A DNA stretch of 24,479 bases from a virus: IMG/VR virus record IMGVR_UViG_3300023119_000116, positions 1 through 24,479 of that record. One strand, given 5' to 3'. Below are positions 4,731-23,195 of the stretch, in pieces (within the stretch, counting starts at the first letter, position 1; every line of letters starts with the position of its first letter). Under the pieces are notes generated by a model. It was not told the DNA's origin. It saw only the letters and a program-made list of their open reading frames with translations, and made no database searches. The translations under genes and the position numbers were made by a program.

Positions 4731-7700
4731 CTATCGGGCTTTAAATGCAGGCCCGTTACCTTTGTTTATTAAACTACTTACATTAAATCCACCAGCTGCT
4801 GCAATATTGTTATTTAAATTAATATTGGGTGTTGGTATATTAGTCGTTGGTATTGTTGCAGTATATGCTTCGCCTGCTACAACACCAGCACCAACAGTAA
4901 TATTTTGACTAATAAAATCATTCGCAGAACCACCTGATCCAGCTGTATGAGGATTGCCAATTACGATAGCCTTATTTCCCGGGAATGATGGGATAGTCGT
5001 CCAAGTATCAATAATTTTAATATCTCTAACATCATCATTTATTGTAATAATTGGAGGAGGAGCAACAAATGCTGTATTAAAAATAATACCTCTGGCTGTA
5101 CCACCACCGCCGCCAGCAATATGACAATCTGCAGCATTTGATAAAACTACATTAAATAATTCATTTTTTTCATTTACAGTATCAGTCAAAATAGGAACTG
5201 TAATTATTTTCTCAGTTTCGCCCGCTGCAAAAGTCAATGTGCCACTAGTCGCGGTGTAATCTTGACCAGCAGTAGCTGAATCAAACCATCTTGGATTACG
5301 TGTAGTTGCAGTTGCAGTTGCATAATCAACAGAACACGCTATATTAGATTCTTCAGATAACGTGACAGTAAAAGACATACTTCCCGATCTTTCATTAGCA
5401 CGCGAATCACTAATTGAAACAACAGGCACAGTGACATTAGTAATTGTTAATGTGCCGCGCGAAACTTCAAATGATGCATACTCGTAATCAACATCAAGCA
5501 AATCTACATGCATAGTCTCATCGCCTTCAGAAACCAAATCTTGTCGCGCGCGTACGTAAATTTGTTCTTCGACACTGCCTTTTGGTATTTTTAATGTGCC
5601 TGCTCTCGGAATATAATCTTGATTTGCTTCAGTGGCAGTTCCATCGGTTGTCTTAAAGTTTATATTAAGGTCGCGATCCATCGGTCTATCAAGACGAACT
5701 TTCAAATATGCAGTGCTATTTTCTCTTGCTGTTGTGTCAAATATACTGATTGATACTTTTTCGGGTTCAGGCTCAGGTGTAGTAGTTGTTACACATACAT
5801 TAGTATCACCACCGCCTCCGCAGTCAGTATGTCCACCATTATCAGTATTTTCACCAGGACAATAAGGAGTAACAAAATTACTTAGTAAATTATTAAAGAC
5901 TATTTCAGGAGTAACAGTAGTAGGAACGTAACCGCAATCTGTTGAATTAACTTCGGTAGATTTAATTTCTACTTGACATTCGCCTATAAATTGATTGCTT
6001 GGACTAGAAGCATTACCATAACCGCCTAAGCTTTCTATGCTCTCACCAGTGTATACCCAAATTCTTTTTGTAGTTCCACTACATTGACCATCCGGACGTG
6101 TAACCGTGCCAGCTGCAGGACATACAGTGGTATTATCTGGCGGAGTTGTGTCAGGTCCGCCGCCAGATGGACCAGTATCTGTTGTAAAGCCACAATCAGG
6201 AGAGTTTGGTGTTCTAGTTCCCACCATTTCTCCACGATTACCATCACAAACTATTGCAATCTTCGTAGTTCCTTCGCACTTGCTATATAAAAATTCTCCG
6301 CGGGGGCAAGGTGGTTCATAATTTTGGCTAGTAGAACCTTGATCGTAGATATCGTCCGCTTGCGTTTCAGCATAATAACACACTTGCATATTAAATACTG
6401 GTTTTGATTTATGAACTCTAACAGTAATATACTTTCCTTTTGTATGATCATAATCAAATTTAATTTGGCCAGCTCCAGCTCGCGAGCTGTATGCTGTTCC
6501 ACCAACTGTAAATGAACCAACTAATCCATCTTCTAACCATGGATTAACTCTATTATAAACTTTATTCTCGCCATTTTTAACAGCATAGGCTCTTCTATAC
6601 AATTCTTGTTTTTCAGAAGATGGTATAGTTGTAGTAACTTGCGTAGGAGCCCATACTACGGTACCAGTTTCTTGACTATTATTAGTAGGCGGTGTATTTG
6701 ACTGAATTACTTCGTATGCAATGCCACCGTCGGGATTGAAGAAATCAATTTTTATTTGTCTCGTTAATCCATCTTCAGGTAGTTTACTATATCCTACAAA
6801 TGTAAATTCTTCCCAAACGCTATCATAAATTGATGTAGCCGTAGCATTTGACCCAATATATTTGTTATTATTATTCGTTACAAAATTGCAAAATTGAGTT
6901 ATGACAATTTCCGGAATAACTGGCACTGCTGCATATGTAGCATAATCTTGTGATACTAGCTTTCTGCGGGTCCAAGGGAATCTAACCGATTTACCAGTTA
7001 CATATTTTTTAGATCTCTTAGCAACATCAAATTCTAATGTCAATTCATTTTTATTAGGTTGCAACAAATATTCGTAAATCGATGCTTGATAATTTGGATC
7101 AGTAATATTTGACATATTATAATTTTCAAAATTATCAACAAAGAAACCGAATTTATATCTTTCGAGAGTAGAATCTACAGAACTTTGAATTGTTCTATTT
7201 CGAGTAGAATTTTCTAAAGCCGAAATATTTTGATTATATTCTAATGCAGCAATTCTCCTTTCGAGGGCAGAAATTTCTTGCATAGTATAACCAGACGTCT
7301 GTTTATCGACTCGTGTCATTAAATTACTATAACGACCAATCCTATTACTACCAGCACTAATATTAATAATTCTCTTATTAATGATTTCTTTTAATTGTGA
7401 AGAAATATTTTCTGGAATAGAAGGATAGGGCGCAACATCGCAAGTATAAATGACGAGTTTTTGTATGTCATCTTTCTTTCTTGTTTCTGAAGCGCCTACA
7501 GTAATATCAAAAGCTCCATCTGCTTTGATAGCAATTTCATCTCTACGTGATTGATAAACATCGTAGTCAAATGTGAAATCACTTTGAGGTTTTGGAAATT
7601 TAAAATTAACACCTGTAGGGAATGAAACAGTTTCTGATGGATTGCATGTTAAATTTGGATCTGTATCACTCGTAGTTAAATTTGCAGTATTAGAAGCAAA

Positions 7701-10700
7701 TATTCTAAAATCAGCACATTCTCTCAGATCATAATATTTGCCATTTTGACCATTCATTTCTGGTATTTCTAATGTATGCATCGAACTAGTTAAATTAGCC
7801 AATGGCGTTACATCATTTATACTGTAAGAATCAATGATTTTTAAGCCGTGTGTAGCTTCTGATATATGATCGAACTCAATCAAAATTTCTGTTGCTAATG
7901 CAGTGGGATTTTCTACTTTTTCATCTTTATACAAATAACCCAAACCATAATAATTGGAATTTTGATTATGATCAATATAAAATTCATCAGTGATATTAGT
8001 TGCCGATTTTGTTGTGCCATTGTATACGGCTCTTAATCTAAAAATACCAGAGAAACCTAAACATTTTGGCCAAGTACCAGCAGATGTCACGCGTACGAGT
8101 GAACCGCGATTAACCGTTAGATTAGATTTAGTGTCTGTAACTTTTTGGTCATATGTAATTGTAACAGATGAACCAGAATTTACATTGTAACCAAGATCTA
8201 CAGTCAAATTAAGTTGATTGCTATCTACGCTAGCTGACATATTAGATCTTTTGTCAAGAGGTATAGGTACATCTTTCGGGAAAAATCGAGTAAACGAATG
8301 AGTACCGACAGCAAAAGCACTATTATATGTTCTAATGGTCATTTTATTTTGACCGCCAATGCTCAAAATTTGAGCTGCGTTATTGCTAGCATCGCGGATC
8401 CAATCACCCACTTCATAAGTAGCTGCAAATGTAGTAACCGGACTTGCGCCGACTGTTATTTCATAAGCATTGACACCAAAACCGAGGTTTACAGATTCTT
8501 TACTTGTTACTGAAATTCCAGTAAAATCTGCTGATGACACTACAATATCATTTTCTGGTATAATGATCAGATCATTTTCTTCTACATCACTAAGAGAAGC
8601 AATGTATGGGAATATGACATTTCCTGAATCTGCTGATACACTTAATTGACCATTTGTCGCGACTGATACTGACGTGGTAGATTGTCGATATATGTACGAA
8701 TAGGTAGAAAACGATTTGATAGGAGCATTAATGTTAAAAATCATCGCATTGCGCGCAGCACCTATAATTTCTGCATTTTTAGTATAAACCGCTGCTCTAT
8801 AATTATCAGCACTCGCTACTGTTTTTATACTGCGCAATACAAATTCATTACCATTCTCAAGAACTACATCAGCAATACCATCAATTGTTGTACCACCATT
8901 ATTTGGGCTATATAATGCTCTTACACTATCAAATCTTTTGCCTGTATTCATGTTAATATCGTACAGATATACACGATATTTCGCATCAGCAGTACCTTGA
9001 ATACCAGATTCATATATAACATTTCTTATACGAGCTGTACCAATAGTAGTACCACCTAATAATGCCGGGTCTCCACCGATATTTTCGCTAATAAAATTAG
9101 CTGCAGTATCTTTTAAATTTACTAGTTGTGTTTCAGTAAAAATATGTCCGCCGCCTACTTCATTGACAACAATATAGTTTGCATAATCTAAATCAATTCC
9201 AGTACCCGTTACTGTCTCAAATTCTGTTGATTTAGGTACAGATTTGGCGAAGTTAGTCTCTGTCTTAACTCTATAACCCTGAATATATGCATGTCCAGGA
9301 TCGAGAACATATTTAAAATTCGTGGCCGAATCTGTAAAATCTAAAGTAGACTGTGTAGTACCATTAAATTCGTCTAAAACATAGTTACCAGATTCCTCAA
9401 ACGCTCTCTGAGCAATCATATCACCGATTTTATTGTATTGTGTTTGCTTATTTTGTGAGTATGGTTGACCTTCTGCGAATCTTACAAGAGGAAAATAATC
9501 AGAAGAAGCTAATTCTTCTGTTTGATTTTTAACTACGAGAGTTGGAGTAAGCTTTAAACGATCTGCACCCGGAGCGCCTGAGTTGAGGAAACCGCCGGCA
9601 TTATCATATAATGATGCATCAGTAAATACATTGACAACTGATTCAACGCTATTAAAACCTATAGAGAGATCTGAAGGAGTATTAGAATATTTGGTAACCA
9701 TTTTAAATTGTGGACCAACATTCAAAAATAAACCTTTCTGATAAATTTTACCTGATGATACTGAAGCGCCATAACCATAACCAACTGGATCAATAAAATC
9801 TGCTGTGCCAGCAATTGTAACTTCTTGATAAAAATCTTGTGGTGAAATAACAAGGTTTTGAATTTGTGTAGGAGTAGCACCGAGAGAATATACACTGACA
9901 TGAGGCAATACACTATAACCAAAACCACCTCTAGTCAATTCTAAATCTGATACTTGACCTGCGCTTGTCGTTACAACTTTACCAGTTGCTCCTTGACCTA
10001 AGAATTTTACAATTCTCAATTCATTATTACTGGATGAAGATGTTAAAATTGTACCGACTGCTAAATCTTCCCAAGATTTTACATCTAGTCCGCTACCTGA
10101 TTGTTTAGTCGGATTTGGCTTAATTCTTAGAATAGAAGTCAAATTTTCTGTATTTGAATAAAAATCAGAATCATTAGTCAATAATACTTCGATCGTACCA
10201 GAAGAATTTTCGAGAGATTCTCCTTGAACAAATGGTACAGGCCAATTATTATCAGAATCGGTGACTGTTTCTACTTCAATTGCTGGTAGAATAACGACAA
10301 CATCACTGTTTGAAAACGCTTGTACTGTACCACCTGAAGATACAGTCAGATCGAATAGTCTATTATCTTTTGCAAATACTCTGAGAATATTGCCTTGCGT
10401 AAATGCATCAACAACTTGTGTTACATCTGCATCATCATTATAATCGAGATACAGTGTTTTTAGATTACCATTTGGATCATTTTCAAAACCGTTTTCTACG
10501 TGTTCTACACGCGCGATTTTATTTGTAACGTTTTCTTTTACAAATAATCCATTGATGTCAGCCAAATCTACTGCAGCCCCTGATTGCGTAGTATCTAGAA
10601 TCTTGACATAAGGAAAAGCATTTTTAAATTCAAAGTCACAACCTTCGAGAATCGTACCTGATTTTAAAATATGATCACCGAATTGCTCGACTTGATCTTG

Positions 10701-10835
10701 CAAAATAGATTGTAATTGATTTACTTCTCGTACTTGAACTGCAGTTGCAGGTTTGAATAATATACGATAGTAATCTTTTGATCTATCGAAATCATCAAAA
10801 TACGGAGATGAGAGTAAGTTTGTATTTAGGGGCAT
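4731..10835 (-). CDS. Giant DUF4815 virion protein with cysteine modules and two Calx-beta domains (2034 aa)
   Basis: The N-terminus (about residues 1-700) has the DUF4815 signature: a 'YYRILFKPATAVQVREVNQL' stretch followed by QSILQDQVEQFGDHI. This family occurs in marine T4-like structural modules. A short coiled coil (EISALERRIAALEYNQNISA, about residues 1185-1210) precedes 'YKFGFFVDNF', which I recall as a conserved element of such proteins. Residues about 1508-1680 carry Cys-containing modules. Residues about 1692-1790 and 1802-1935 are two Calx-beta-like domains (SISDSRANERSGSMSFTV, DYTATSGTLTFAAGE). The last ~100 residues are Gly/Asn/Thr-rich. The start at 10835 follows a GGAG site inside the end of gp8, with 3 bases between the genes. 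Position suggests a peripheral baseplate or adhesin component replacing T4 gp9-gp12. The domain calls are firm; the function is inferred. Confidence 0.85.
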   Translation of the reverse strand: MPLNTNLLSSPYFDDFDRSKDYYRILFKPATAVQVREVNQLQSILQDQVEQFGDHILKSGTILEGCDFEFKNAFPYVKILDTTQSGAAVDLADINGLFVKENVTNKIARVEHVENGFENDPNGNLKTLYLDYNDDADVTQVVDAFTQGNILRVFAKDNRLFDLTVSSGGTVQAFSNSDVVVILPAIEVETVTDSDNNWPVPFVQGESLENSSGTIEVLLTNDSDFYSNTENLTSILRIKPNPTKQSGSGLDVKSWEDLAVGTILTSSSSNNELRIVKFLGQGATGKVVTTSAGQVSDLELTRGGFGYSVLPHVSVYSLGATPTQIQNLVISPQDFYQEVTIAGTADFIDPVGYGYGASVSSGKIYQKGLFLNVGPQFKMVTKYSNTPSDLSIGFNSVESVVNVFTDASLYDNAGGFLNSGAPGADRLKLTPTLVVKNQTEELASSDYFPLVRFAEGQPYSQNKQTQYNKIGDMIAQRAFEESGNYVLDEFNGTTQSTLDFTDSATNFKYVLDPGHAYIQGYRVKTETNFAKSVPKSTEFETVTGTGIDLDYANYIVVNEVGGGHIFTETQLVNLKDTAANFISENIGGDPALLGGTTIGTARIRNVIYESGIQGTADAKYRVYLYDINMNTGKRFDSVRALYSPNNGGTTIDGIADVVLENGNEFVLRSIKTVASADNYRAAVYTKNAEIIGAARNAMIFNINAPIKSFSTYSYIYRQSTTSVSVATNGQLSVSADSGNVIFPYIASLSDVEENDLIIIPENDIVVSSADFTGISVTSKESVNLGFGVNAYEITVGASPVTTFAATYEVGDWIRDASNNAAQILSIGGQNKMTIRTYNSAFAVGTHSFTRFFPKDVPIPLDKRSNMSASVDSNQLNLTVDLGYNVNSGSSVTITYDQKVTDTKSNLTVNRGSLVRVTSAGTWPKCLGFSGIFRLRAVYNGTTKSATNITDEFYIDHNQNSNYYGLGYLYKDEKVENPTALATEILIEFDHISEATHGLKIIDSYSINDVTPLANLTSSMHTLEIPEMNGQNGKYYDLRECADFRIFASNTANLTTSDTDPNLTCNPSETVSFPTGVNFKFPKPQSDFTFDYDVYQSRRDEIAIKADGAFDITVGASETRKKDDIQKLVIYTCDVAPYPSIPENISSQLKEIINKRIINISAGSNRIGRYSNLMTRVDKQTSGYTMQEISALERRIAALEYNQNISALENSTRNRTIQSSVDSTLERYKFGFFVDNFENYNMSNITDPNYQASIYEYLLQPNKNELTLEFDVAKRSKKYVTGKSVRFPWTRRKLVSQDYATYAAVPVIPEIVITQFCNFVTNNNNKYIGSNATATSIYDSVWEEFTFVGYSKLPEDGLTRQIKIDFFNPDGGIAYEVIQSNTPPTNNSQETGTVVWAPTQVTTTIPSSEKQELYRRAYAVKNGENKVYNRVNPWLEDGLVGSFTVGGTAYSSRAGAGQIKFDYDHTKGKYITVRVHKSKPVFNMQVCYYAETQADDIYDQGSTSQNYEPPCPRGEFLYSKCEGTTKIAIVCDGNRGEMVGTRTPNSPDCGFTTDTGPSGGGPDTTPPDNTTVCPAAGTVTRPDGQCSGTTKRIWVYTGESIESLGGYGNASSPSNQFIGECQVEIKSTEVNSTDCGYVPTTVTPEIVFNNLLSNFVTPYCPGENTDNGGHTDCGGGGDTNVCVTTTTPEPEPEKVSISIFDTTARENSTAYLKVRLDRPMDRDLNINFKTTDGTATEANQDYIPRAGTLKIPKGSVEEQIYVRARQDLVSEGDETMHVDLLDVDYEYASFEVSRGTLTITNVTVPVVSISDSRANERSGSMSFTVTLSEESNIACSVDYATATATTRNPRWFDSATAGQDYTATSGTLTFAAGETEKIITVPILTDTVNEKNELFNVVLSNAADCHIAGGGGGTARGIIFNTAFVAPPPIITINDDVRDIKIIDTWTTIPSFPGNKAIVIGNPHTAGSGGSANDFISQNITVGAGVVAGEAYTATIPTTNIPTPNINLNNNIAAAGGFNVSSLINKGNGPAFKAR
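5030..5767 (-). repeat. Two Calx-beta-like domains in the DUF4815 protein
   Basis: The first domain (about nt 5767-5450) has VSISIFDTTARENSTAYLKV, a D-rich strand pair and 'GDETMHVDLLDV'. The second (about 5430-5030) has VVSISDSRANERSGSMSFTV, 'QDYTATSGTLTFAAGETEKI' and 'NEKNELFNVVLSNA', and closes with ITINDD. These are the strand and acidic-turn signatures of Calx-beta domains, which bind calcium in exchangers and adhesins. The acidic positions needed for calcium appear kept (DD, NE, DE), so calcium-stabilised surface domains are plausible. Confidence 0.8.
5795..6312 (-). repeat. Cysteine-containing modules in the DUF4815 protein
   Basis: Two modules share the layout C-P-x-x-G, then C-x-G-T-T-K, an aromatic/hydrophobic strand, a Gly/Asn-rich loop, and an NS.DCG[FY] end. 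Module one spans about nt 6310-6180 (SKCEGTTKIAIVCDG, TPNSPDCGFT); module two about 6125-5925 (GQCSGTTKRIWVYTGE, VNSTDCGYVP). A third, decayed or partial one (YCPGENTDNGGHTDCGGGGD) follows to about 5795. Linkers are Pro/Thr/Gly-rich. These resemble Cys modules I know from cyanophage structural proteins; no metal or disulfide role can be proven from sequence. Confidence 0.7.
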
Positions 10836-13037: not shown

Positions 13038-15939
13038 TACTAACTGTAGTGTTAGTATAGAAAGTATTTTCATTAACAAATAAACCATATTGTTTAATAT
13101 TCCATGTTGTCGATGATTGAGTTGCATCAATTCCGACAGGTGATTCTGAAGTACCGACAAAACCACCAAATGGTTTACTTCCTGACAAATGCAATACATC
13201 TATGAGTGTTTGCTTATATTTGCTAAATGGCAGAGAAGTTAAAACTTGATATGAATATTCTTGATAAAAATCATTGTCATGAAGATATTTATCCGAACTC
13301 AAAAATGATTTTCTATTGGGATGTACACCGGGCGCTATACCATTTTGACCTAAATAACCATACACAGATATTGATTTATTAGAATCAGTTACAGATCTTA
13401 AAACGAGAGGTTCTCCTCTGACGTAAGTATCTGTGACCGGATCGAGCTGCCGGCCAAAATATCCGATACCCGAATCAATAACTCTCAATGAAGTTGCAAA
13501 ACCATCACCTGATAGAGTTTCGGTATTAATCACAGCATTTAAACCTACTCTTGGATGCATTCTTAATTCATCTACTACTTCAATAGTCACTGCGACACCC
13601 GATGTTTGTCCTTCAAGTGTATCACCTATTCTAAAGTCTTCATCTACGCTCCACTGAGTATCTGAATTAGCAGTTACATCTTGAGAAGCAAAAAGTCGTG
13701 TGACCTTCATTTCTCTTTTAGTAATATCAAAGCTCATAATTCTGCCGAATGCATTGTCTTTGCCAGCAGATTTTACTATCTCTCCCAGTCTAAAAGCTTT
13801 TCTAATATTATCAGCACCTTCATCATAGTATTTAATATAGAAATCATATCTCTCAGTATGGAACGCAAGTGGATCAAATACAATATAAGATGGAGCGATA
13901 CCGTATCCTTCACCCGGGTTAGTCACTACAATTTGTTCTAATGACCCTACTGATATAGCTGTATTAGTATAATTTAAAGCATCAGATAAAACCGTATTAG
14001 ATAATTGTATTTGGTTACCAGATGCAATCCATTCAAAAACAGAATTAGGATTGCCGGTATCGTAATTTAATATATCGCCTATATTAGTTGAAGCGATATC
14101 TAATAGATTAATATAGAACGGACCACCTTCTCTTGTTGTCGTTTCATAATAGAAATAATCTTGTGTATCAGAAAGAGATGATTCAGGTCCTTTGAACGAT
14201 GCCTTATTGGTAAAAGAAAAGCTATTATTATTCGACGAACCACTTGCATACGAACCTAATTCGGTATTTGATGTGTAAGTATTTGCTAATTTTTTAAATG
14301 GTATGCCGCCCTGTAATTCGGTTCCATTATTAATAATACCAATTTGTACATTTGATAATTTCGTAATATTGCATTCTAAATCTTTTTCACCAACACGATT
14401 TCGATAAAATGGTTTATTTGTTCTAAAAAAACCTTTTTCTCTGATAACATTAGCGTACAGCTGACCTGAAGTAGTATTTGCAAATGTGTTTGCTACAACG
14501 GCATGTACGTATCTTACACCCGCTGTTTCTTCTTTTTGATATAGAATATCTCCGCCTATCAGTGGTTGTCCTGTTGTTGTATATTCAAGTGTAAGAGTAT
14601 TGCTCGTTGCAATAACATTGCCTGATATAGATGCATCAACAATGTTTGCTGTTGTGTCGACAACTAACTCGGCGCCGTCTGATGTATAAAAAGAGCTAAT
14701 TACATTTGAATGAAATAAATTACCATCATCTAATTGTATTTCATTATTTGAATTTACATAATTGGATTTTATATAGTTTACAATTATATAGTCTTGATTT
14801 GTATTAACTTCAACAATAGTACAATTAAAAACAACATTTGATGCAGTATTACCATTATGATAGACTAATAAGTCTGTGCCTAAAGTATATGCAGCCGCGT
14901 TACTATTATCTTGATCAAAAGTAATTAATGATAAATCTTGATGTACAGATTTAAATCGTTGAAACGGATCAACATGATAAAAATAATCTGTATTTTCAAC
15001 AGTTATATCATCTAATAATAATTCTCTATCGGCACCAATTACAAGAGAATCCGCGCTATATCCCCAACCTGATTCATGATCGAGAATATCAAAACTTACT
15101 ACACCCACCTCTGATTCTATACTAGTAACGATTGCCCGGGCCTTTTTACCTTTTCCGCCCTCGACGACAACCTCTTCACCTACCACAAAATTTGGATCAG
15201 TAGCATTAATTTCTAAAGAGGTCAAAGAACCAATCACTTCGTTTTGATATACTATATCTGATCCTATTTCTGGTCTAGTTCTTATTTGTTCGTTTGTCTG
15301 AAATACACCATTCAATGCGCTTAGGTATATTACTTCTACAAACAAAGATCCCTTTTTAACTCTTACTAATCTTTCAGCAAAAGCTGTAGCTTTCGATGTA
15401 TCACCATAAATTTGTCTACCTATAAATCCTACATTAATAGGACTAGGTACCATTTCTAAATATCTTTTATTTTCCCATTCATTATCAGATAGTTTAAAAA
15501 GATCGCGAGCTGGCTCGTATACTCGCGCTTCTAATCCATATACTAATTTAAAAAAGAGATCAACTGCTCGTTCTGTACCCTTCGCTCTATAAAATTCTAA
15601 AGCATTTTTAATAAACAGTTTCTTATTTGTTGCAATATTAAATTGAATATTCGGTAGATATTTGTTTTTAAAGTCTAGAATAAACTCGTCGAGAGTATTA
15701 TCAATATCTCTATAATTTGTTAAATTCCTGCTGTGATGTAACGTTGCTGATGGATTATCGACGACTGTCCATGGATCGCTATCTTTTGCATCGCGAGGTT
15801 TATATTCAAATTGTTTGCTTTCTAACCATTCATAATATGCTTTTACAAAAGCAATGAACTGCGGCCCTTCTTCACGATAAAAATCTGGCAGTTGCGTACT
15901 GACGAATTTAGAAATATTTTTTTCTATTTCAATTGACAT
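13033..15939 (-). CDS. gp7: Baseplate wedge protein gp7-like (968 aa)
   Basis: T4 gp7 (1032 aa) is the wedge subunit that ties the gp6-gp25 core to gp8 and gp10. Here the N-terminus resembles the middle of T4 gp7: 'FIAFVKAYYEWLES' fits T4 'FEAFCEAYIQYLSDG', and 'EFYRAKGTERAVDLFFKLVY' (residues ~111-130) fits 'SYDFYSTKGIEASYKFLFKVLY'. Near the C-terminus, 'YQVLTSLPFSKYKQTLIDVL' and HLSGSKPFGGFVG fit T4 'YVMKIKSNLPSSRWKSDVIRFVHPVGFGFI'. The N-terminal beta-propeller part of T4 gp7 has no counterpart. Instead about 600 residues of beta-rich sequence sit between the two conserved parts, with 'GEGYGIAPSYIVFDP', 'DSGIGYFG' and 'IGDTLEGQTSGVAVTI' motifs. The start ATG shares one base with the gp6 stop (TAATG). 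The call rests on comparison by eye plus a perfect 25-6-7-8 order. Confidence 0.85.
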   Translation of the reverse strand: MSIEIEKNISKFVSTQLPDFYREEGPQFIAFVKAYYEWLESKQFEYKPRDAKDSDPWTVVDNPSATLHHSRNLTNYRDIDNTLDEFILDFKNKYLPNIQFNIATNKKLFIKNALEFYRAKGTERAVDLFFKLVYGLEARVYEPARDLFKLSDNEWENKRYLEMVPSPINVGFIGRQIYGDTSKATAFAERLVRVKKGSLFVEVIYLSALNGVFQTNEQIRTRPEIGSDIVYQNEVIGSLTSLEINATDPNFVVGEEVVVEGGKGKKARAIVTSIESEVGVVSFDILDHESGWGYSADSLVIGADRELLLDDITVENTDYFYHVDPFQRFKSVHQDLSLITFDQDNSNAAAYTLGTDLLVYHNGNTASNVVFNCTIVEVNTNQDYIIVNYIKSNYVNSNNEIQLDDGNLFHSNVISSFYTSDGAELVVDTTANIVDASISGNVIATSNTLTLEYTTTGQPLIGGDILYQKEETAGVRYVHAVVANTFANTTSGQLYANVIREKGFFRTNKPFYRNRVGEKDLECNITKLSNVQIGIINNGTELQGGIPFKKLANTYTSNTELGSYASGSSNNNSFSFTNKASFKGPESSLSDTQDYFYYETTTREGGPFYINLLDIASTNIGDILNYDTGNPNSVFEWIASGNQIQLSNTVLSDALNYTNTAISVGSLEQIVVTNPGEGYGIAPSYIVFDPLAFHTERYDFYIKYYDEGADNIRKAFRLGEIVKSAGKDNAFGRIMSFDITKREMKVTRLFASQDVTANSDTQWSVDEDFRIGDTLEGQTSGVAVTIEVVDELRMHPRVGLNAVINTETLSGDGFATSLRVIDSGIGYFGRQLDPVTDTYVRGEPLVLRSVTDSNKSISVYGYLGQNGIAPGVHPNRKSFLSSDKYLHDNDFYQEYSYQVLTSLPFSKYKQTLIDVLHLSGSKPFGGFVGTSESPVGIDATQSSTTWNIKQYGLFVNENTFYTNTTVST

Positions 15940-17726
15940 TAAAGTCTAACCTGCTGGATTTTTACAGAAATATCTTCGTCTAAGACTCTGATAATAGAGC
16001 GCCGTTGTGAAAAAATATCTTTAGCTCGAGGCGTAACAGTCAATTTAAACGTGGTCTTTAAACTACCTGTCGAAAAGTTTTCTAGTTTAATTACCCCAGT
16101 ATCATAATTAACAACTCCAATCGGAGTAATAATTTCGTGCTCATCTCCATTTTCTCTAACAACGTTAATTGTGCCTAAGCCGTCATCCTCGAGAAAAGAT
16201 GTCATACCGTCATAGGTAAATGGTTCAGATTTAACAACAGACAATTGATTTTTCGAATGATTTCCTAACTTTTGACCTATATCATTTTTTAATTGCATTG
16301 CAAAATCAAGAGTGTAATTTCTTTTTGTCTGTTCTGGTATTGCAATAAACTTTGTAGCAGATACTGTCGTATCGTTACTGATAATAGAATCTTGAGCGGC
16401 GTCGATAGCAGCGATTAATTTACTATAATGTAGCGTTTTATTAAATCCTTCCAAATTATTTGCATTAAATGATTGTATAGCAGAAATTACAATTGCTCGT
16501 ATATCATCTACACCGAGAGATGTCTGAGTAATATTATATTTCACATTTGAATTAACACTCAGATACATGTAATCAGGTTTTACGAAAACTGGATCGATAG
16601 ATAACGGGCTTCTAGGTTTGACAAATTGTCTATACTTGTCTCTAAAGCTTTTTGGCAATTCATCTGTATTTTTTAAATCAACTGCGACGATAACTTTACC
16701 AAACATAGGCGGTTCGAACTCTTCTCCGCCATATGCAGCAACATCATTGATTTCTGAAAAATTTGCTTTTAATAATGTAGCATAATCGTTAGCAGTCACA
16801 ACTCTTTCCTGTGTAGTAAAAGCACGAGGAGCATTGAGTTTAATTGATTCTAAACTTTCGGGTACAGAGCCTGCTGCTGCTCGTTCGATAGTCTCGATAT
16901 CAGTAACAGATGCTGTGCCGATAGGACCATCAGCAGCAAATTTTGAAATACCATTTGGTAATTCGCCATTGCACGCACGATATTCTATAAGAACGATAGA
17001 ATTATTTTTTGGCGGTCGACCTATTACTCCGTCGCCGAATTGTATTTCGTAAGTATCACCTTCTGCGGCTTGAAGAAAATAAACTTGATCAGCAACACCG
17101 AGACCAAGTAAACTATCTGTCCTTTCATATGACAAAACTGTAGCACCATTATCCTCAATTATTGTAACTTTAATACTATTAGTATCAATTGTTTTATTTG
17201 TTACGATATAGCGAGCTGTTTGACCAACAACAAAAGAGTCTTTTACATAATCTCCTTCATATAGAATAACATCTTCAGCCGTGTATTGGTTTGTGTCCGT
17301 CTGTAGAGCTTGTATATTTTCTGAAGTAGTAAACGTAAAGTTTTTATTTCCTGAAGTGCCAGTAAAAGTAGTGCCGCGCGGAATCAAAACCGTAGCATTC
17401 GTAGTATTATCTGTTAGCACAATATTTACACGTGCATATGCAGATCTAAATGATCGAGGAATATAATTTAATTCTTTTACATGAGAAATAATTGAATCAC
17501 GTAATAAAGCAGAATCTAAAAACATTTCACTTGCTATCATATTAATATAAAAATTATTTAGATTCGTATTATATGCTAAAACATCAAGAAGAGCATTGAT
17601 ATTCGAAGCTTCGAAATCATAATCCTTAAAGATATGACCGTATTCTTTTGAACCGGATAGATATTCTTTTAGATTTTGTTTTATGCTATCGAAATCGAGA
17701 GTTGTAAGATTTTTGCTTGCGGCCAT
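15939..17726 (-). CDS. gp6: Baseplate wedge protein gp6 (baseplate J-like family, 595 aa)
   Basis: gp6 forms the continuous ring of dimers at the wedge core and changes shape during sheath contraction; T4 gp6 has 660 residues. The N-terminus matches T4 closely: 'FDSIKQNLKEYLSGS...YDFEASNINALLDVLAYNT' against T4 'FAEIKQNLIEWLNGQ...YDFEGSRLNVLCDLLAYNT'. 'LIPRGTTFTG' near residue 118 fits T4 'TIPRGTRFLA'. 'ERVVTANDYATLLKANFSEI' near residue 308 fits T4 'QRCVTATDYDTFVSERFGSI', the baseplate-J signature, and 'PLSIDPVFVKPDYMYLSVNS' follows. The C-terminus is shorter than in T4. The gene starts one base after the gp25 stop, so the two partner proteins of the wedge core are translationally coupled. 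No membrane or signal sequence is present. Confidence 0.96.
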   Translation of the reverse strand: MAASKNLTTLDFDSIKQNLKEYLSGSKEYGHIFKDYDFEASNINALLDVLAYNTNLNNFYINMIASEMFLDSALLRDSIISHVKELNYIPRSFRSAYARVNIVLTDNTTNATVLIPRGTTFTGTSGNKNFTFTTSENIQALQTDTNQYTAEDVILYEGDYVKDSFVVGQTARYIVTNKTIDTNSIKVTIIEDNGATVLSYERTDSLLGLGVADQVYFLQAAEGDTYEIQFGDGVIGRPPKNNSIVLIEYRACNGELPNGISKFAADGPIGTASVTDIETIERAAAGSVPESLESIKLNAPRAFTTQERVVTANDYATLLKANFSEINDVAAYGGEEFEPPMFGKVIVAVDLKNTDELPKSFRDKYRQFVKPRSPLSIDPVFVKPDYMYLSVNSNVKYNITQTSLGVDDIRAIVISAIQSFNANNLEGFNKTLHYSKLIAAIDAAQDSIISNDTTVSATKFIAIPEQTKRNYTLDFAMQLKNDIGQKLGNHSKNQLSVVKSEPFTYDGMTSFLEDDGLGTINVVRENGDEHEIITPIGVVNYDTGVIKLENFSTGSLKTTFKLTVTPRAKDIFSQRRSIIRVLDEDISVKIQQVRL

Positions 17727-17727
17727 T

Positions 17728-18165
17728 TTAACGTACTCTATAAAGTGTGATGTCTAGCGTTTCGTCCGTTTGAGATGTAATGATACTAAAAACTATATGT
17801 ACATTCATTTCGTTGTATTCTTCGTTTGAAGTTACTTCAACGCTGTTTAATCGAACTCGCGGCTCATAATTTTTTACGAGCTCTTTAATATGTCTTTCAA
17901 TTTCTTGAGGTATCCGCTGATCATCGAATGGCTCGAATAAATGTCTTCTAATATTACCACCAAAATCGGGATTTCTCAGCTTCTCATATTTATTAGTGAG
18001 AATAAGATTGCGCAATGCCATTTTAACAGCATCAGCATTAGTTTTACGGCTAATTTGTTGAGTATGAGGATGAGCTAAAAAAGTATGATTAAAATCGCTA
18101 TAAAAATCACGTCTTTTATCTGATAGCTTATATTCGTCATTCTTCTTGGCTGTTTTTACACCCAT
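17728..18165 (-). CDS. gp25: Baseplate wedge protein gp25 (GPW/gp25 family, 145 aa)
   Basis: gp25 sits in the wedge core with two gp6 chains and helps start sheath assembly. T4 gp25 has 132 residues and the family also includes P2 gpW and T6SS TssE. The hallmark Glu-Pro-Arg motif is seen at residues 101-103 in 'KNYEPRVRLNSVEV', followed by the family's C-terminal beta strands. The middle has the usual 'ADAVKMALRNLILTNKYEKL' helix and a 'FGGNIRRHLFEPFDD' turn. The start at 18165 is preceded by AGAGAAA as a weak ribosome binding site, 22 bases after the end of the spike-tip gene, and a CATAAATA octamer lies in that gap. The first 10 residues are basic and look like a small N-terminal extension. 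Confidence 0.96.
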   Translation of the reverse strand: MGVKTAKKNDEYKLSDKRRDFYSDFNHTFLAHPHTQQISRKTNADAVKMALRNLILTNKYEKLRNPDFGGNIRRHLFEPFDDQRIPQEIERHIKELVKNYEPRVRLNSVEVTSNEEYNEMNVHIVFSIITSQTDETLDITLYRVR

Positions 18166-18184: not shown

Positions 18185-18192
18185 TATTTATG
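18185..18192 (-). promoter_or_regulatory. Late-promoter-like octamer CATAAATA upstream of gp25
   Basis: On the minus strand the octamer CATAAATA overlaps the stop codon of the putative spike-tip gene and lies 19 bases before the gp25 start at 18165. It differs from the T4 late promoter TATAAATA at one position and fits the NATAAATA form described for marine T4-like phages. There is no sigma70-like -35 box, as expected for late promoters read by gp55-gp33-type sigma factors. It would give gp25-gp6-gp7 their own transcript start. In an AT-rich genome chance matches occur, but a second identical octamer at a gene junction supports it. Confidence 0.5.
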
Positions 18193-18994
18193 ATCCAATA
18201 CCAGTGCTACCACTAATTGCGCCAGTGTTAATATCTGCTGCTAATGTTCCGGGTGTATGAGTATGATTTAGAGTAGCAATAGCAGAACCATCAACTGTCG
18301 TACCGGCCGGCAAATCTAAAGTGCCCCCGCTTATCGATATACTGCCACCAGAAACTGTAATAGTAACTCCTTGACTAACAATTTTAAAATTGTCGCAATT
18401 TATAATAACTTCGGGATCATTCCCTCCGTTATGTTCAATTGTAAATGTTGAATTACAATTGATTACAAAATTATTAGCTTTAACATCAAAATCATCATTA
18501 GCATTTACATTAAATTCATTACTGTAAAATTGTACATCAGAATTGATTACAAAATTATTGGCTTCAACATTAAAATCATTGCTATAAAATTGTACATCAG
18601 GTAATATACCATCACATTGATCTACAACCATAGCATTACAATTTATAATAAAGTTATTAGCCTGAATATCAAAATCTACTTCACATGTATTTCCAACATC
18701 ATCTCTCACATTTGCAGCTTCTGTATTTTTAGTATTAGCTAATGCTGCTAAATCATTTGCTAACTGATAAGCATTTGTTTCTAATTGATTACAAAACTCG
18801 ACAAATCCAATTGTATCATTCGAAAAATTTAATGTATTTGCAACATTAATAACATTATATGGAAATATTGGTAGATGGTATGCAGATCCATTTACGGCTA
18901 CACCATTAACTGTCGAATAAGAAGGAACTAAATTGCCTTCAGTAGTATGACTGCGAGTTCCATCGGGATTCAAATCAACATGACATGTACTCAT
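18188..18994 (-). CDS. Probable spike-tip protein with beta-solenoid repeats and HxH metal motif (268 aa)
   Basis: I do not recognise the N-terminal ~100 residues (MSTCHVDLNPDGTRSHTTEG). Residues about 105-185 contain a repeated unit: FDIQANNFIINCN, FNVEANNFVINSD and FDVKANNFVINCN, with 'DVQFYSN' twice. This alternation of short strands suits an intertwined beta-helix. It is followed by 'VTITVSGGSISISGGTLDLP' and then 'ATLNHTHTPG' and a Gly/Ser/Ala-rich tail. A His-X-His near the C-terminus of a beta-helical spike is the iron-binding apex of P2 gpV and of phi92 gp138, where three chains supply six histidines. The gene lies in the hub block downstream of gp5, and no PAAR protein is seen. I infer it caps or extends the gp5 spike. 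Start codon: GGGAG lies nine bases upstream. Phage structural protein is likely; tip role is moderate. Confidence 0.65.
   Translation of the reverse strand: MSTCHVDLNPDGTRSHTTEGNLVPSYSTVNGVAVNGSAYHLPIFPYNVINVANTLNFSNDTIGFVEFCNQLETNAYQLANDLAALANTKNTEAANVRDDVGNTCEVDFDIQANNFIINCNAMVVDQCDGILPDVQFYSNDFNVEANNFVINSDVQFYSNEFNVNANDDFDVKANNFVINCNSTFTIEHNGGNDPEVIINCDNFKIVSQGVTITVSGGSISISGGTLDLPAGTTVDGSAIATLNHTHTPGTLAADINTGAISGSTGIGS
18440..18681 (-). repeat. Beta-solenoid repeats in the putative spike-tip gene
   Basis: A unit reading F[ND][VI].ANNF[VI]IN[CS] occurs three times, and 'DVQFYSN[DE]FNV' occurs twice. At DNA level the plus-strand blocks ending at 18540 and 18600 both end with TAAAATTGTACATCAG, exactly 60 bases apart. 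AATTGATTACAAAATTATT is found at 18457 and again at 18541. The near-identity indicates recent tandem duplication in a rod-forming segment. Confidence 0.8.
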
Positions 18995-18996
18995 TA

Positions 18997-19692
18997 TTAA
19001 ACTCCCGCGGGTATTTCTATATTATTTAAAGTATCGGCACTTTGATTAATGCTATCAACAGCAGTTTCTATTTCTCCTACTGTATCCATCAATGTAGTGA
19101 CCTGGCCTAGTACATCTTCTCTGAGATCAAGTAATTCATTAAAGCCCAATTGCTCTAAGGCCTGATCTTTCAGACTTTCATAAATCCCGGTTGCTTGATT
19201 ATATAAACCAATTGCATTTTCGAGTAAAGTATTTTTGAGAGTGCTGAGTGTATCAAAAACTAAATCGGTAATACAATTAGCTAATCTCGTAGCGGCCTGT
19301 GCTGCAGCCGCTGCTAATCCAGCCAATGCTCCAGCCAATTGAGCTATCTGTATAGCCAGTTTAATTGCCGCCTCGATTGCTGGACCTGCCATTCCAGTCA
19401 CTACCTTTTTAGCCCATTTAATTATTTTTAACGGATCAGATGGTAATGATAATATCGGTGCATAATTAGACATTAACTCGCTAATCTCTTGTGCTTTTCC
19501 TTTAATCATATCAACAACAGTTTTTACGTGTTCTTCAACTAGCATTTCTAATCTTTCACAACTAAACTCTCCTGCGACCATTGCAGTTTGGCCTTCAGGA
19601 GGACCAGGTATTTCTACCTCAGTCATGCCTGTAGCGGCTTCAAGTTCCGCTTTCATTTCATTGAGTCGATCTATTGTTTTTTCAACTGACAT
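18997..19692 (-). CDS. Ala/Leu-rich helical protein of unknown function in the spike block (231 aa)
   Basis: No family is recognised. The protein appears entirely alpha-helical, unlike every other gene here. Residues about 1-20 are charged helix, residues 28-34 are PGPPEGQ, residues 42-72 form an amphipathic helix, and residues about 96-150 are strongly hydrophobic (IKLAIQIAQLAGALAGLAAA at 110-129) and could contact a membrane or pack in a helical bundle. The C-terminal part (~150-222) is again amphipathic with heptad-like repeats, ending NIEIPAGV. There is no cleavable signal peptide. It lies 10 bases after gp5 and 2 bases before the putative tip gene, so it is co-translated with the spike. 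Possible roles are a chaperone for spike trimerisation, a spike-bound cargo, or a membrane-active tail protein. The sequence does not decide between them. AAGG precedes the start. Confidence 0.7.
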   Translation of the reverse strand: MSVEKTIDRLNEMKAELEAATGMTEVEIPGPPEGQTAMVAGEFSCERLEMLVEEHVKTVVDMIKGKAQEISELMSNYAPILSLPSDPLKIIKWAKKVVTGMAGPAIEAAIKLAIQIAQLAGALAGLAAAAAQAATRLANCITDLVFDTLSTLKNTLLENAIGLYNQATGIYESLKDQALEQLGFNELLDLREDVLGQVTTLMDTVGEIETAVDSINQSADTLNNIEIPAGV

Positions 19693-19702
19693 TATTTTTA
19701 CC

Positions 19703-21910
19703 TTATTCTATACCAGTTATTACACCATTAGTCACTGTTACTACTTTACCATTCAATGCTGTAAATGTATCCGAAACACCGATTTTTGTTCCCATACCAT
19801 CTCGTACAAATAATGGTCCGAGAATAGATACACTGGGAGTATCGAATGTCACACCCACCTCAGATTTTACAGTGAATTCATTGCGAGAATTAAATGTAGC
19901 TGCTCCATGCATATCCCAAAATGTATTGCCAATAGTATTTAGCGTTTGATTACCTCTGACGTCGAGCGCCATGTCAGTACCTACGCGCGTCACCCATTCA
20001 TTTGATACATCAATATATAAACCTCTTTCCTCATTCCCTCTTTTTCTTTCATCTGCTGGTAAATTACCTACACTGAGATAAAAGTTATTTTGAGTTGTAT
20101 GAGAAGCATTATTTTTAACATCAACATAATAATTAAATGCATCATCATCGCTAGCTTGCCTCGCATCACTCCCTGCGGGATCATAACCAACATTTAAATA
20201 CGTATTATTTTTAACGTCAGTAATATGATTCGCAGTTCCATATTCTGTTCTGCTTTCACTAGCTGGTTTCCAACCAACGAGAGACAATTGATTATTTTTG
20301 ATATCTAAATAGCTATTAGTAACATCATTGTCTGTAACTTGTCTAGCTTCATCAACTGGTTTCCAACCTACAGTTGTAAAACTATTATTTCTAATATCTT
20401 CATATCTATTTGCTACATCAGTTTTTGTGATATTTCTAGCATCGTCAAGAGGTTTCCAACCAATATTCAGTAGACTATTATTTTTAACATCAATATATTG
20501 ACTGACAACTTCGATATCACTTAACTGTCTAGATTCACCATCACCTCTTTCATTATTTCTCGGTATCCAACCAATAGTTGTGACTTGATTATTTGCTAGC
20601 TCTATATAATAATTTTTCTTTGAATGCTCGTCAAGTTCTCGTGCATACGTATATGACCAACCGATATGTAGTTGTACGTTGTTTGCTACATCAGTAATAA
20701 AGTTTGCCTGTTGTTTTTCGGGCAAAACTTTTTTGTCCATAATTTGTAATAATTTATTCTCAGCATTATTCCAAATAAATTCATCATTTTGATAACGAGC
20801 TATTTTTGATTTTATTACTCTCTCGCCATCAGTTGTTGTTCGCGGTGCAAATCCAACGGCAATAAACATATTATTGCCTGTCGTATGAAACTCGTTATTA
20901 CTAATACCTGACGTAGTATTATTAGCAACTTCTATCTTTAAACTTTCTTGAACAAGTGTTTCTTTATTTCCTACAACAATATTATATTCATTTTCTGTAG
21001 TCTTTCTAACTCGTCTTCCTTCCCACTTTTCTTTTACTGATGTATGGGAATAATCTGGTTCTTCCCATGCATTAGGCCCCATATTTTGTGGATATGCTCC
21101 CTTTAATCCATCTCTATTTTGTTCTGGCGGACCATTAGAAATTTCTTCATAGCTTCCTGAACGATGCCAAATATGAACTCTTTCATGGCCTGGAGTATCG
21201 TCAATTTCTATCGCATGTCCAGATTTTGTAGTATGAACTAAATTATATGGATATTTTGTATCATAATCTGATGGCGGTTGTTTTACTAGACCTAACTTAC
21301 CAGAATTATACGGATGTTTAGGTAATAATTGTCCACCTACTTCAGGTGCAATTTCAGCTTCATAATCTTGACCGAGAGGATGATTAGCCACTCTTTGTTT
21401 ATCAGACCACCAACCTTTCGCTAAGGCTGATACATCCATATATTCATATTCTTCAGTTGGTACATCTACCTGTAGCATTTCACCTGTAGCTTTATCAGTA
21501 GGCGGCTCAGGATATAATGAATTTTTATGATACGTACCAAAAATAATTGGAATATTTGCTTCATGACCGTCGAGATAAAATCCAAATACATATGTGCCAA
21601 TTGCAATACCGGTCGGAGATGTACCAACAGCATCAATCCAAAATGGTGTCTCAAATTTTTCTAATTCAACTATCTTACGATAACTTAAACTCGAAGATTG
21701 AATAGAAGAAAGCGGCCACGCCCACAATAGATCTTCATCATTAATACCATATGTACCTTCTACTTTTCCTAATTCACCAGTTTGATCATGTAATACTCTT
21801 ACCTTTACACGGCCAAGATAACGTTGAGTTTGTTTTTCTTCTTCAGGATCAAGCTTGACAACTCTGCCTACAAACCAATTAAAAGATTCACCTAAATTAT
21901 AATATGCCAT
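19703..21910 (-). CDS. gp5: gp5-like baseplate hub/spike protein without lysozyme domain (735 aa)
   Basis: T4 gp5 is a trimer of OB-fold, lysozyme and beta-helix that punctures the outer membrane. Here residues 1-130 are the OB domain: 'SFNWFVGRVVKLDPEEEK' and 'YLGRVKVRVL' match T4 'NLNWFVGVVEDRMDPLKLGRVRVRV', and 'GTYVFGFYLDGHEANIPIIF' fits T4 'GTRVYGHFLDKW...GIVLGTYGG'. Residues ~228-310 match the start of the T4 C-domain: 'KSGHAIEIDDTPGHERVHIW', 'SGSYEEISNG' and 'RRVRKTTENEYNIVVGN'. The span between (~130-228) is far too short for the ~175-residue T4 lysozyme and shows no catalytic motif. From ~345 to ~645 the shaft consists of 'VGWKP..EAR.....' repeats of about 31 residues instead of T4 octapeptides. 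The C-terminus (VGVTFDTPSVSILGPLFVRD) again looks beta-helical. Start: 4 bases after the gp27 stop. Confidence 0.95.
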   Translation of the reverse strand: MAYYNLGESFNWFVGRVVKLDPEEEKQTQRYLGRVKVRVLHDQTGELGKVEGTYGINDEDLLWAWPLSSIQSSSLSYRKIVELEKFETPFWIDAVGTSPTGIAIGTYVFGFYLDGHEANIPIIFGTYHKNSLYPEPPTDKATGEMLQVDVPTEEYEYMDVSALAKGWWSDKQRVANHPLGQDYEAEIAPEVGGQLLPKHPYNSGKLGLVKQPPSDYDTKYPYNLVHTTKSGHAIEIDDTPGHERVHIWHRSGSYEEISNGPPEQNRDGLKGAYPQNMGPNAWEEPDYSHTSVKEKWEGRRVRKTTENEYNIVVGNKETLVQESLKIEVANNTTSGISNNEFHTTGNNMFIAVGFAPRTTTDGERVIKSKIARYQNDEFIWNNAENKLLQIMDKKVLPEKQQANFITDVANNVQLHIGWSYTYARELDEHSKKNYYIELANNQVTTIGWIPRNNERGDGESRQLSDIEVVSQYIDVKNNSLLNIGWKPLDDARNITKTDVANRYEDIRNNSFTTVGWKPVDEARQVTDNDVTNSYLDIKNNQLSLVGWKPASESRTEYGTANHITDVKNNTYLNVGYDPAGSDARQASDDDAFNYYVDVKNNASHTTQNNFYLSVGNLPADERKRGNEERGLYIDVSNEWVTRVGTDMALDVRGNQTLNTIGNTFWDMHGAATFNSRNEFTVKSEVGVTFDTPSVSILGPLFVRDGMGTKIGVSDTFTALNGKVVTVTNGVITGIE
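19960..20880 (-). repeat. About eight tandem GWKP-type repeats in the gp5 shaft
   Basis: Within gp5 a unit of about 31 residues (93 bases) recurs. Each copy has [IV]GW.P followed by an [ED]AR/[ES]R turn, a polar stretch and 'Y.D[IV][KR]NN', for example VGWKPVDEARQVTDNDV followed by YLDIKNN. Clear copies begin near nt 20665, 20575, 20462, 20368, 20276 and 20190; more divergent ones lie near 20870 (VGFAPRTTTDGER), 20075 (VGNLPADERKR) and 19990 (VGTDMALDV). The core DNA word ggtttccaacc (plus strand) occurs in three consecutive copies at 93-base spacing. The central copies are most alike, which suggests growth by tandem duplication. Confidence 0.85.
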
Positions 21911-21914
21911 CTCA

Positions 21915-23195
21915 TTATCCCAAAGGCTGATTAAACTGATTTGGTTTAGCAGCTTCCATTACCAAAAAATGATTAAATCTGCCGTCATGTTGTTTTTCTA
22001 AACGATGCTTTAAATTAGTTACGATATAATTAGATACAAAGATTTTACCTCGTGGTCTACTTTCAGTCGTACCAGCTATAATTGGTAAATCAAGATTAAC
22101 AATATCACCAACTCTCATATTTGTATCACCATATGTTCTAAATCGTATAGAATATTGAAACATTCTTTCACGAAAAGCCCGTTGAAAATGTATATTTTTA
22201 TTATGTTCCATTTCTTCTCGTGTACCATCTTTTACAGACATTCGTGTCAGGCCCGGACGCACGGTAGTAAAATTATTATAATCTGAACTATTAAAATCAT
22301 TTGGATCATCTGTTTTGGCAAATTTTGTATGATCAACAGGATTATTGTATTCTTCTTTTAAATAATATGTGCCACGATGTATATCAAATTGACGAATTTG
22401 ATTTCTCATAGCTCCTTTCATTACTTTGCCTATTGATGAACCTTGTGATATTGTTTCATACGATAAAATATTTCTAAAGTTTATATCAGTTCCATAATCG
22501 GCTACTCTATTCACTGTATCTAAAACAAAGTTTTTTTCTGAAGCTTGAGGTTTTCTGTCTTTAATTAGTTTTTCTATTGTTTGAAAATGATAGCCTTCAT
22601 TGTCTTGATAAAAAACAAAGAGCGATGATTTATTTTGTTCAGCTGATACTGCTCTTTCTTTAATAATATCTACTACTTGAAATGGTCTGACATTATTGAC
22701 AACGTAATCAAATTTGCCTTTTGTATTCTCTATAGTTTTTAAATCTACTTCTGCATTTAAATCGTTCTTAATACAATTAAATAAAGCATCATGATACAAC
22801 ATATCTTTGTATCTTTTCGTATAAACTTTAAAACTATTTTTTAGAAAGTCTTTTGTAGTACAGCGCAAAATATAATATCGCATATTCGATTGATCATTGG
22901 CTCGCATCGCGACTACACTTTCTATAAAAAAATCGTATGAAATAGTTTTTCTATTAGGTGTTTGCAATTTTACTGATATCAGTTCTTCACCACCGAGCGG
23001 ATACTCGTTGACTAAATCAATGCCTTCACCGATATAAAAATCAGCAGTCACTGTATGATTATCTAAAGATTCAAAAATATCAAACCTCTGAACAATATTA
23101 TGAATGTTCATTGGTTTTGATCCATTAAATTTTGTCAGCTCAATCTTATCACCTACAATGATAATGTCGCCGGCATCATTTGCTTGTCTAGCCAT
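21915..23195 (-). CDS. gp27: gp27-like baseplate hub protein (426 aa)
   Basis: gp27 is the trimeric hub ring that holds gp5 and continues into the tail tube; T4 gp27 has 391 residues and is related to P2 gpD and to the VgrG N-terminus. Fit to T4: 'VQRFDIFESLDNHTVTADFY' with 'LGGEELISVKLQTP' corresponds to T4 '[20 protein letters not shown]...GNEIIQISVANAN', and the C-terminal 'RVGDIVNLDLP...GKIFVSNYIVTNLKHRL' corresponds to T4 'TPGVKIIFNDS...TEFYVDEVIHEL'. A hub-type middle is seen in 'NVRPFQVVDIIKERAVSAEQ' followed by 'SLFVFYQDNEGYHF', like T4 '[26 protein letters not shown]'. It lies directly upstream of gp5, its physical partner, with a 4-base gap, and one base after gp53. No membrane segment is present. 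Confidence 0.87.
   Translation of the reverse strand: MARQANDAGDIIIVGDKIELTKFNGSKPMNIHNIVQRFDIFESLDNHTVTADFYIGEGIDLVNEYPLGGEELISVKLQTPNRKTISYDFFIESVVAMRANDQSNMRYYILRCTTKDFLKNSFKVYTKRYKDMLYHDALFNCIKNDLNAEVDLKTIENTKGKFDYVVNNVRPFQVVDIIKERAVSAEQNKSSLFVFYQDNEGYHFQTIEKLIKDRKPQASEKNFVLDTVNRVADYGTDINFRNILSYETISQGSSIGKVMKGAMRNQIRQFDIHRGTYYLKEEYNNPVDHTKFAKTDDPNDFNSSDYNNFTTVRPGLTRMSVKDGTREEMEHNKNIHFQRAFRERMFQYSIRFRTYGDTNMRVGDIVNLDLPIIAGTTESRPRGKIFVSNYIVTNLKHRLEKQHDGRFNHFLVMEAAKPNQFNQPLG

Follow-up and report, generated by a model that had tools for sequence, protein, structure and literature searches.

PAAR tips and HxH tips are generally presented as belonging to different types of phage. In the spikes of P2, phi92 and R2-pyocin, an iron at the apex is bound by six histidines of HxH motifs, and in T4 the PAAR protein gp5.4 caps gp5 (PMC10715212, PMC6116203, PMC4576200). 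Phage Milano has the fused tip type (PMC10811340). HxH sites are also carried by T4 gp37, T4 gp12 and pyocin fibres (PMC6116203), so an HxH alone does not identify a central spike.

The window analysed here is a virus record of 24,479 bases, with all main genes on the minus strand (Table 1). Comparison with PHROGs and Pfam showed that it contains a T4-type baseplate block: gp48 (partial), gp53, a hub protein at the gp27 position, gp5, two proteins that we call A and B, gp25, gp6, a gp7-like wedge protein, gp8 and a very long protein. Judged by gp6, Caulobacter phage Cr30 (37%), Sinorhizobium phage phiM12 (37%) and Pelagibacter phage HTVC008M (34%) are among the nearest named phages. A 2,034-aa protein is encoded at 4731–10835 of the window, and HTVC008M has a VrlC-annotated protein at the matching place.

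Table 1. Positions of the tip and hub features in the 24,479-base window.
Feature	Position	Strand	Remark
Protein B, 268 aa, proposed separate HxH spike-tip protein	18188..18994	-	
HxH codons of B, His244-Thr245-His246	18257..18265	-	At the same alignment position in most relatives
Predicted long helix of B, residues 62-95	18710..18811	-	AlphaFold2, low confidence
Extended/beta region of B, residues 105-240	18275..18682	-	
Protein A, 231 aa, mostly helical, proposed gp5-B adaptor	18997..19692	-	
gp5, 735 aa, OB domain and long repetitive spike	19703..21910	-	
gp5 C-terminal module, ...SDTFTALNGKVVTVTNGVITGIE	19706..19777	-	Form of all A-bearing phages
gp25, far border of the tip slot	17728..18165	-	
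gp27-position hub protein, phrog_350 tail protein, near border of the hub block	21915..23195	-	
gp6, basis of the tree and of relative finding	15939..17726	-	

Protein B and its HxH motif

The B reading frame is real. It is intact, and a 100% identical protein occurs in two other contigs, so B is not an assembly error. Its C-terminal half is beta-rich and there is a single HxH, in ...ATLNHTHTPG.... Two details of the original prediction do not hold: B does not end in LNHTHTPG, since 22 residues come after His246, and it is not encoded directly downstream of gp5, since protein A intervenes. B has a variable N-terminal end, one long helix, a repetitive beta region with three ANNFxIN repeats (at residues 112, 145 and 173) and the HxH close to the C-terminal end (His244/His246 of 268). 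Residues 206-233 weakly match PF21930. The AlphaFold2 monomer of B is poor (pLDDT 59, with the apex <50), and consists of one helix followed by an extended or beta region mostly at pLDDT 65-83, which may be what an intertwined trimer gives when modelled singly. In this model, the helix could possibly be an attachment or trimerisation part.

Relatives of B share 34-51% identity with it and were seen only in uncultured viral contigs; the homologue of L034 is compact, at 138 aa. Neither B nor the B of a relative had a match by tblastn in 50,697 named-phage records, and a composite query approximating the C-terminal end of B likewise had no named-phage match by tblastn. Outside the HxH the sequence is strongly divergent among relatives, and the whole-set alignment is too divergent to seed a scan of the collection. 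Where relatives align, the H-x-H lies 6 to 36 residues from the end, in the variants HTHT, HTHS, HTHG, HTHQ, HRHT and HRHE. The expectation that homologues conserve the motif was thus borne out for most, at the aligned place, but some B proteins have no HxH and some relatives have no B. The slot protein of L022-L024 (L numbers denote loci) has a coiled-coil-like C-terminal end without HxH, and in L035-L038 A is followed directly by gp25; an HxH tip is therefore dispensable in relatives. L018 also lacks the HxH, but we did not keep it as an HxH-less homologue: read in another frame, part of the sequence past its stop codon resembles the end of L072, so a frameshift or a misassembly probably accounts for this copy.

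Could the motif be a coincidence in a beta-rich structural protein, with no role in metal binding? An HxH does appear somewhere in about 11% (10.7%) of shuffled copies of B, but only 1.6% have one within the last 40 residues, and in most relatives the motif, also in its HRH variants, stands at the matching position of the alignment. We consider this explanation very improbable. Among ORFs of the baseplate block, an HxH within the last 45 residues was found in 13/16 B homologues, 2/33 gp5 proteins and 0/205 others (gp25, gp6, gp27, gp53, gp48, gp7-like, gp8, A and the 2,034-aa protein), in counts that were taken over overlapping loci and are not independent.

Tip types between gp5 and gp25

The strongest evidence for B as a tip is its genomic context. 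We read the gp5-gp25 interval in fetched loci of related T4-type phages and contigs, and found several types of occupant. PAAR is encoded there by a gene of its own in Cr30, HTVC008M, L041, L084, L109, L128, L131, L134, L149 and L152. B shares this placement, as a separate gene between gp5 and gp25; the likeness is one of position only and not of homology. In L116 (4752-5543) and L142 a short PAAR-like end is fused to gp5 and no gene separates gp5 from gp25; the PF05488 match on the L116 gp5 end is 18 bits, below the cut-off. In L086, L095, L102, L103 and L129 an HxH is fused to the C-terminal end of gp5 and there is no larger slot gene (L095 has a 61-aa ORF in the slot). The L102 gp5 is over the Pfam Apex cut-off and retains the T4 OB domain. 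These fused forms have the same hub type and locus as the window, but in them the tip is part of gp5, whereas the proposed tip of the window is separate. Besides the window, ten other slot types have A and an HxH-bearing B. In the loci that remain, the slot is filled by A on its own, by an extended A, or by a 410-460 aa protein after a blunt gp5.

Further slot and gp5 forms were recorded alongside these. The 410-460 aa proteins after a blunt gp5 occur in L104, L106, L108, L111-L113, L115, L117, L122, L126, L127, L130, L132, L136 and L137; L103 and L129, with HxH on gp5 and no such gene, are close relatives of these loci. The slot of phiM12 (L011 5759-7321) encodes a 520-aa protein with a C-terminal M15 peptidase, and the phiM12 genome has no PAAR. 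In Pseudomonas phage pf16 (L158 1486-3018), an HIH lies within gp5, past the spike region, and a long linker leads from there to a peptidase-like domain. HxH-fused gp5 proteins suspected from tblastn coverage in DLP6, Vibrio phage 207E48.1 and Milchi proved on reading the sequences not to be such.

PAAR takes exactly this slot in close and distant relatives, never together with A or a C-terminal HxH. With loci clustered by gp25 at 90% identity, into clusters that are not phylogenetically independent, A was present in 0/9 PAAR clusters compared to 23/43 clusters without PAAR (p 0.003). A C-terminal HxH was present in 0/9 compared to 12/43, a difference that is not significant (p 0.07). The original observation that no PAAR is visible stands for the window and for a 29.8-kb near-identical relative, both of which are fragments. 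Neither PF05488 nor DUF4280 was found in the window or in the A+B relatives examined. Nor does a PAAR gene lie elsewhere in a much longer relative: a 160,330-base A+B contig has no PAAR and no DUF4280 within these 160,330 bases, and holds only one B. The same search does detect PAAR in PAAR-class relatives, among them one of 163,706 bases.

On a gp6 tree of 70 rows, obtained by a quick search, the five tip classes require about 18 changes. The HxH-fused type arises five times on it, and two PAAR phages, L041 and L084, adjoin the A+B clade. If this sequence tree is broadly right, these changes of class mean that tip designs have been exchanged repeatedly on a common hub.

The gp5 of the window has an OB domain (Gp5_OB, 4.5e-9, over the Pfam cut-off), Gp5_trimer_C is over its cut-off in the gp5 homologue of L006, and no lysozyme domain was detected in the window gp5. 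In its spike a unit of roughly 31-37 aa (VKNN...IGWKP) is repeated about six to nine times, which is unusual for a gp5 beta-helix; the repeats are fewer in the L006 homologue. PAAR-bearing gp5 proteins are mostly blunt-ended at the beta-helix (for example ...APTIDIN). Alongside A, all 25/25 distinct gp5 ends have the form FTxxxGxxVxVxNGIVTxI; of the gp5 ends without A, 3/35 fit this loose pattern, and on visual inspection all three are ends of a beta-helix. We infer from these sequences that A docks on the gp5 C-terminal module. Protein A is conserved at 53-77% in the near group, and has no relative in 50,697 named-phage records (tblastn) or in the genome collection. The PAAR motif is absent from both A and B. 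A match of A to phrog_788 (3.4e-5) was dropped, as the same model matches 11/14 control genomes. The structure model of A (pLDDT 50) matched designed bundles and alpha-pore toxins, but these matches were uninterpretable. Proteins A with long C-terminal extensions, of 436-602 aa in all, occur in L097, L101, L110, L138, L140 and L147, and some of them end in apparent Ig-like domains.

The close link between A and gp5 raises another possibility, that A or the gp5 C-terminal module is the real cap and B an optional accessory such as a host-specific extension. A is strictly coupled to the gp5 module, both exclude PAAR, and B is absent from L035-L038, L085, L120, L121, L145 and L148. This arrangement leaves unexplained why an HxH is kept near the end of B in divergent lineages, and why an HxH is fused to gp5 where A and B are absent. 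We regard it as improbable.

Likeness of B to known spikes and fibres

Pfam, PDB sequence and fold searches gave no similarity of B over a curated or significance threshold. Below threshold, 5/9 B proteins match PF21930, a 'beta helical trimerization domain' by its description, whose family name appears to refer to gene product 138. The match of the window B has an E of 0.019, and the best, in a B relative, has an E of 4.4e-4 and 20.6 bits against a curated cut-off of 27. Pfam reported no match of B to Apex (PF18946). With the C-terminal 66 residues of B as a query, phi92 gene product 138 ranked second in the PDB, with HTH aligned on HTH (E 0.17), and it was also second with a profile of seven B relatives (E 0.11). 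In a PDB fold search with the monomer model (pLDDT 59), the top three matches were VgrG spikes, and the phi92 and R2-pyocin spikes were among later matches, mixed with other proteins; none was significant. Fold matches to viral models were similarly mixed, with two proteins named for an N-terminal spike domain together with fibres and others. We take the sequence and fold likenesses of B to spikes as weak, concordant hints only.

Among the closest described counterparts are phi92 gene product 138 and P2 gpV (PDB 3PQH/3PQI, 3QR7). Like these, B has an HxH near the C-terminal end after a beta-helix-like region, and its resemblance to phi92 138 in sequence and fold is weak and below family cut-offs. 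In both known proteins OB domain, beta-helix and apex lie in one polypeptide. In contrast, B has no match to an OB domain and has a helix at its start, and its gene is distinct from that of gp5, which bears the OB domain of the window. By the criteria tested, namely lack of the OB domain and model scores under the cut-off, B is not a member of the gpV/138 family as judged from its sequence, but probably works like the gpV/138 apex. With T4 gp5 and gp5.4, the window shares a T4-type gp5 and baseplate and a tip encoded as a separate gene after gp5; it differs in having A+B in place of PAAR, and a different end module on gp5.

The main rival reading makes B an adhesin attached near the hub, in the form of a short trimeric fibre or a needle extension, and not a piercing tip. 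Its HxH would then be an ordinary metal site of a fibre shaft, like those known in T4 gp37, T4 gp12 and the pyocin fibres (PMC6116203). Some slot proteins of A-bearing phages have no HxH, and the viral fold search of B mixes fibres with spike proteins, both of which would suit a fibre. The C-terminal ends ATEEWVEDNFAESDHTHQLP (L031) and ENTHTHTFSGTGSDGNTS (L025) resemble what we take to be tail-fibre phrases, a further point in its favour. Against this, Pfam and PHROGs gave no match of B to a fibre or collar family, the weak family signal that B does have is to a spike domain, and the gene lies in the hub operon, at the slot that PAAR takes in relatives. Moreover, the fibres of T4 (gp37, gp12) and R-pyocin carry a trimeric HxH metal site, as is proposed for B, with the motif inside the shaft, whereas B has one HxH near its end. 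We therefore think a fibre unlikely, albeit the most serious of the alternatives.

A proposed two-protein tip

The original prediction was that this T4-type phage builds its tip from a separate HxH protein in place of PAAR. This remains the best-supported reading of the locus, although it overlooked protein A, which goes with a special gp5 end and could itself be the part seated on gp5, and the HxH is not universal. We favour, with some reserve, the view that B is a separate, trimeric, metal-binding spike tip that is mounted through A on gp5. We infer the trimer, the metal, the order gp5-A-B and the piercing of a membrane by B. The spike tip would be a protein of its own and not a C-terminal part of the spike protein. 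A short beta-helix would form from three intertwined B chains, and on its axis six histidines (His244 and His246 of each chain) would come together to bind one metal ion. This metal, iron by analogy, would close the point. A would serve as the adaptor from B to the special C-terminal module of gp5. Contraction of the sheath would then drive gp5-A-B through the outer membrane, as it does gp5-gp5.4 in T4.

More broadly, it seems to us an evenly balanced proposition that the gp5-gp25 interval is a site at which tips of interchangeable designs (separate PAAR, gp5-fused PAAR, gp5-fused HxH, A+B and other large proteins) are swapped, with A+B being a previously undescribed HxH tip made of two proteins. 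We found no description of a separate HxH tip protein in the literature searched.

What would such a tip mean for these phages? The alternation of PAAR and HxH at one locus of one T4-type group suggests that the tip is chosen independently of other baseplate parts. As an HxH signature of unrelated phages is found in the PAAR slot, the tip looks like an exchangeable part. These natural variants could be used to probe what a tip is for, be it sharpening, folding of the spike or matching to the host envelope. If true, A+B would be a new way to mount a metal tip on a spike.
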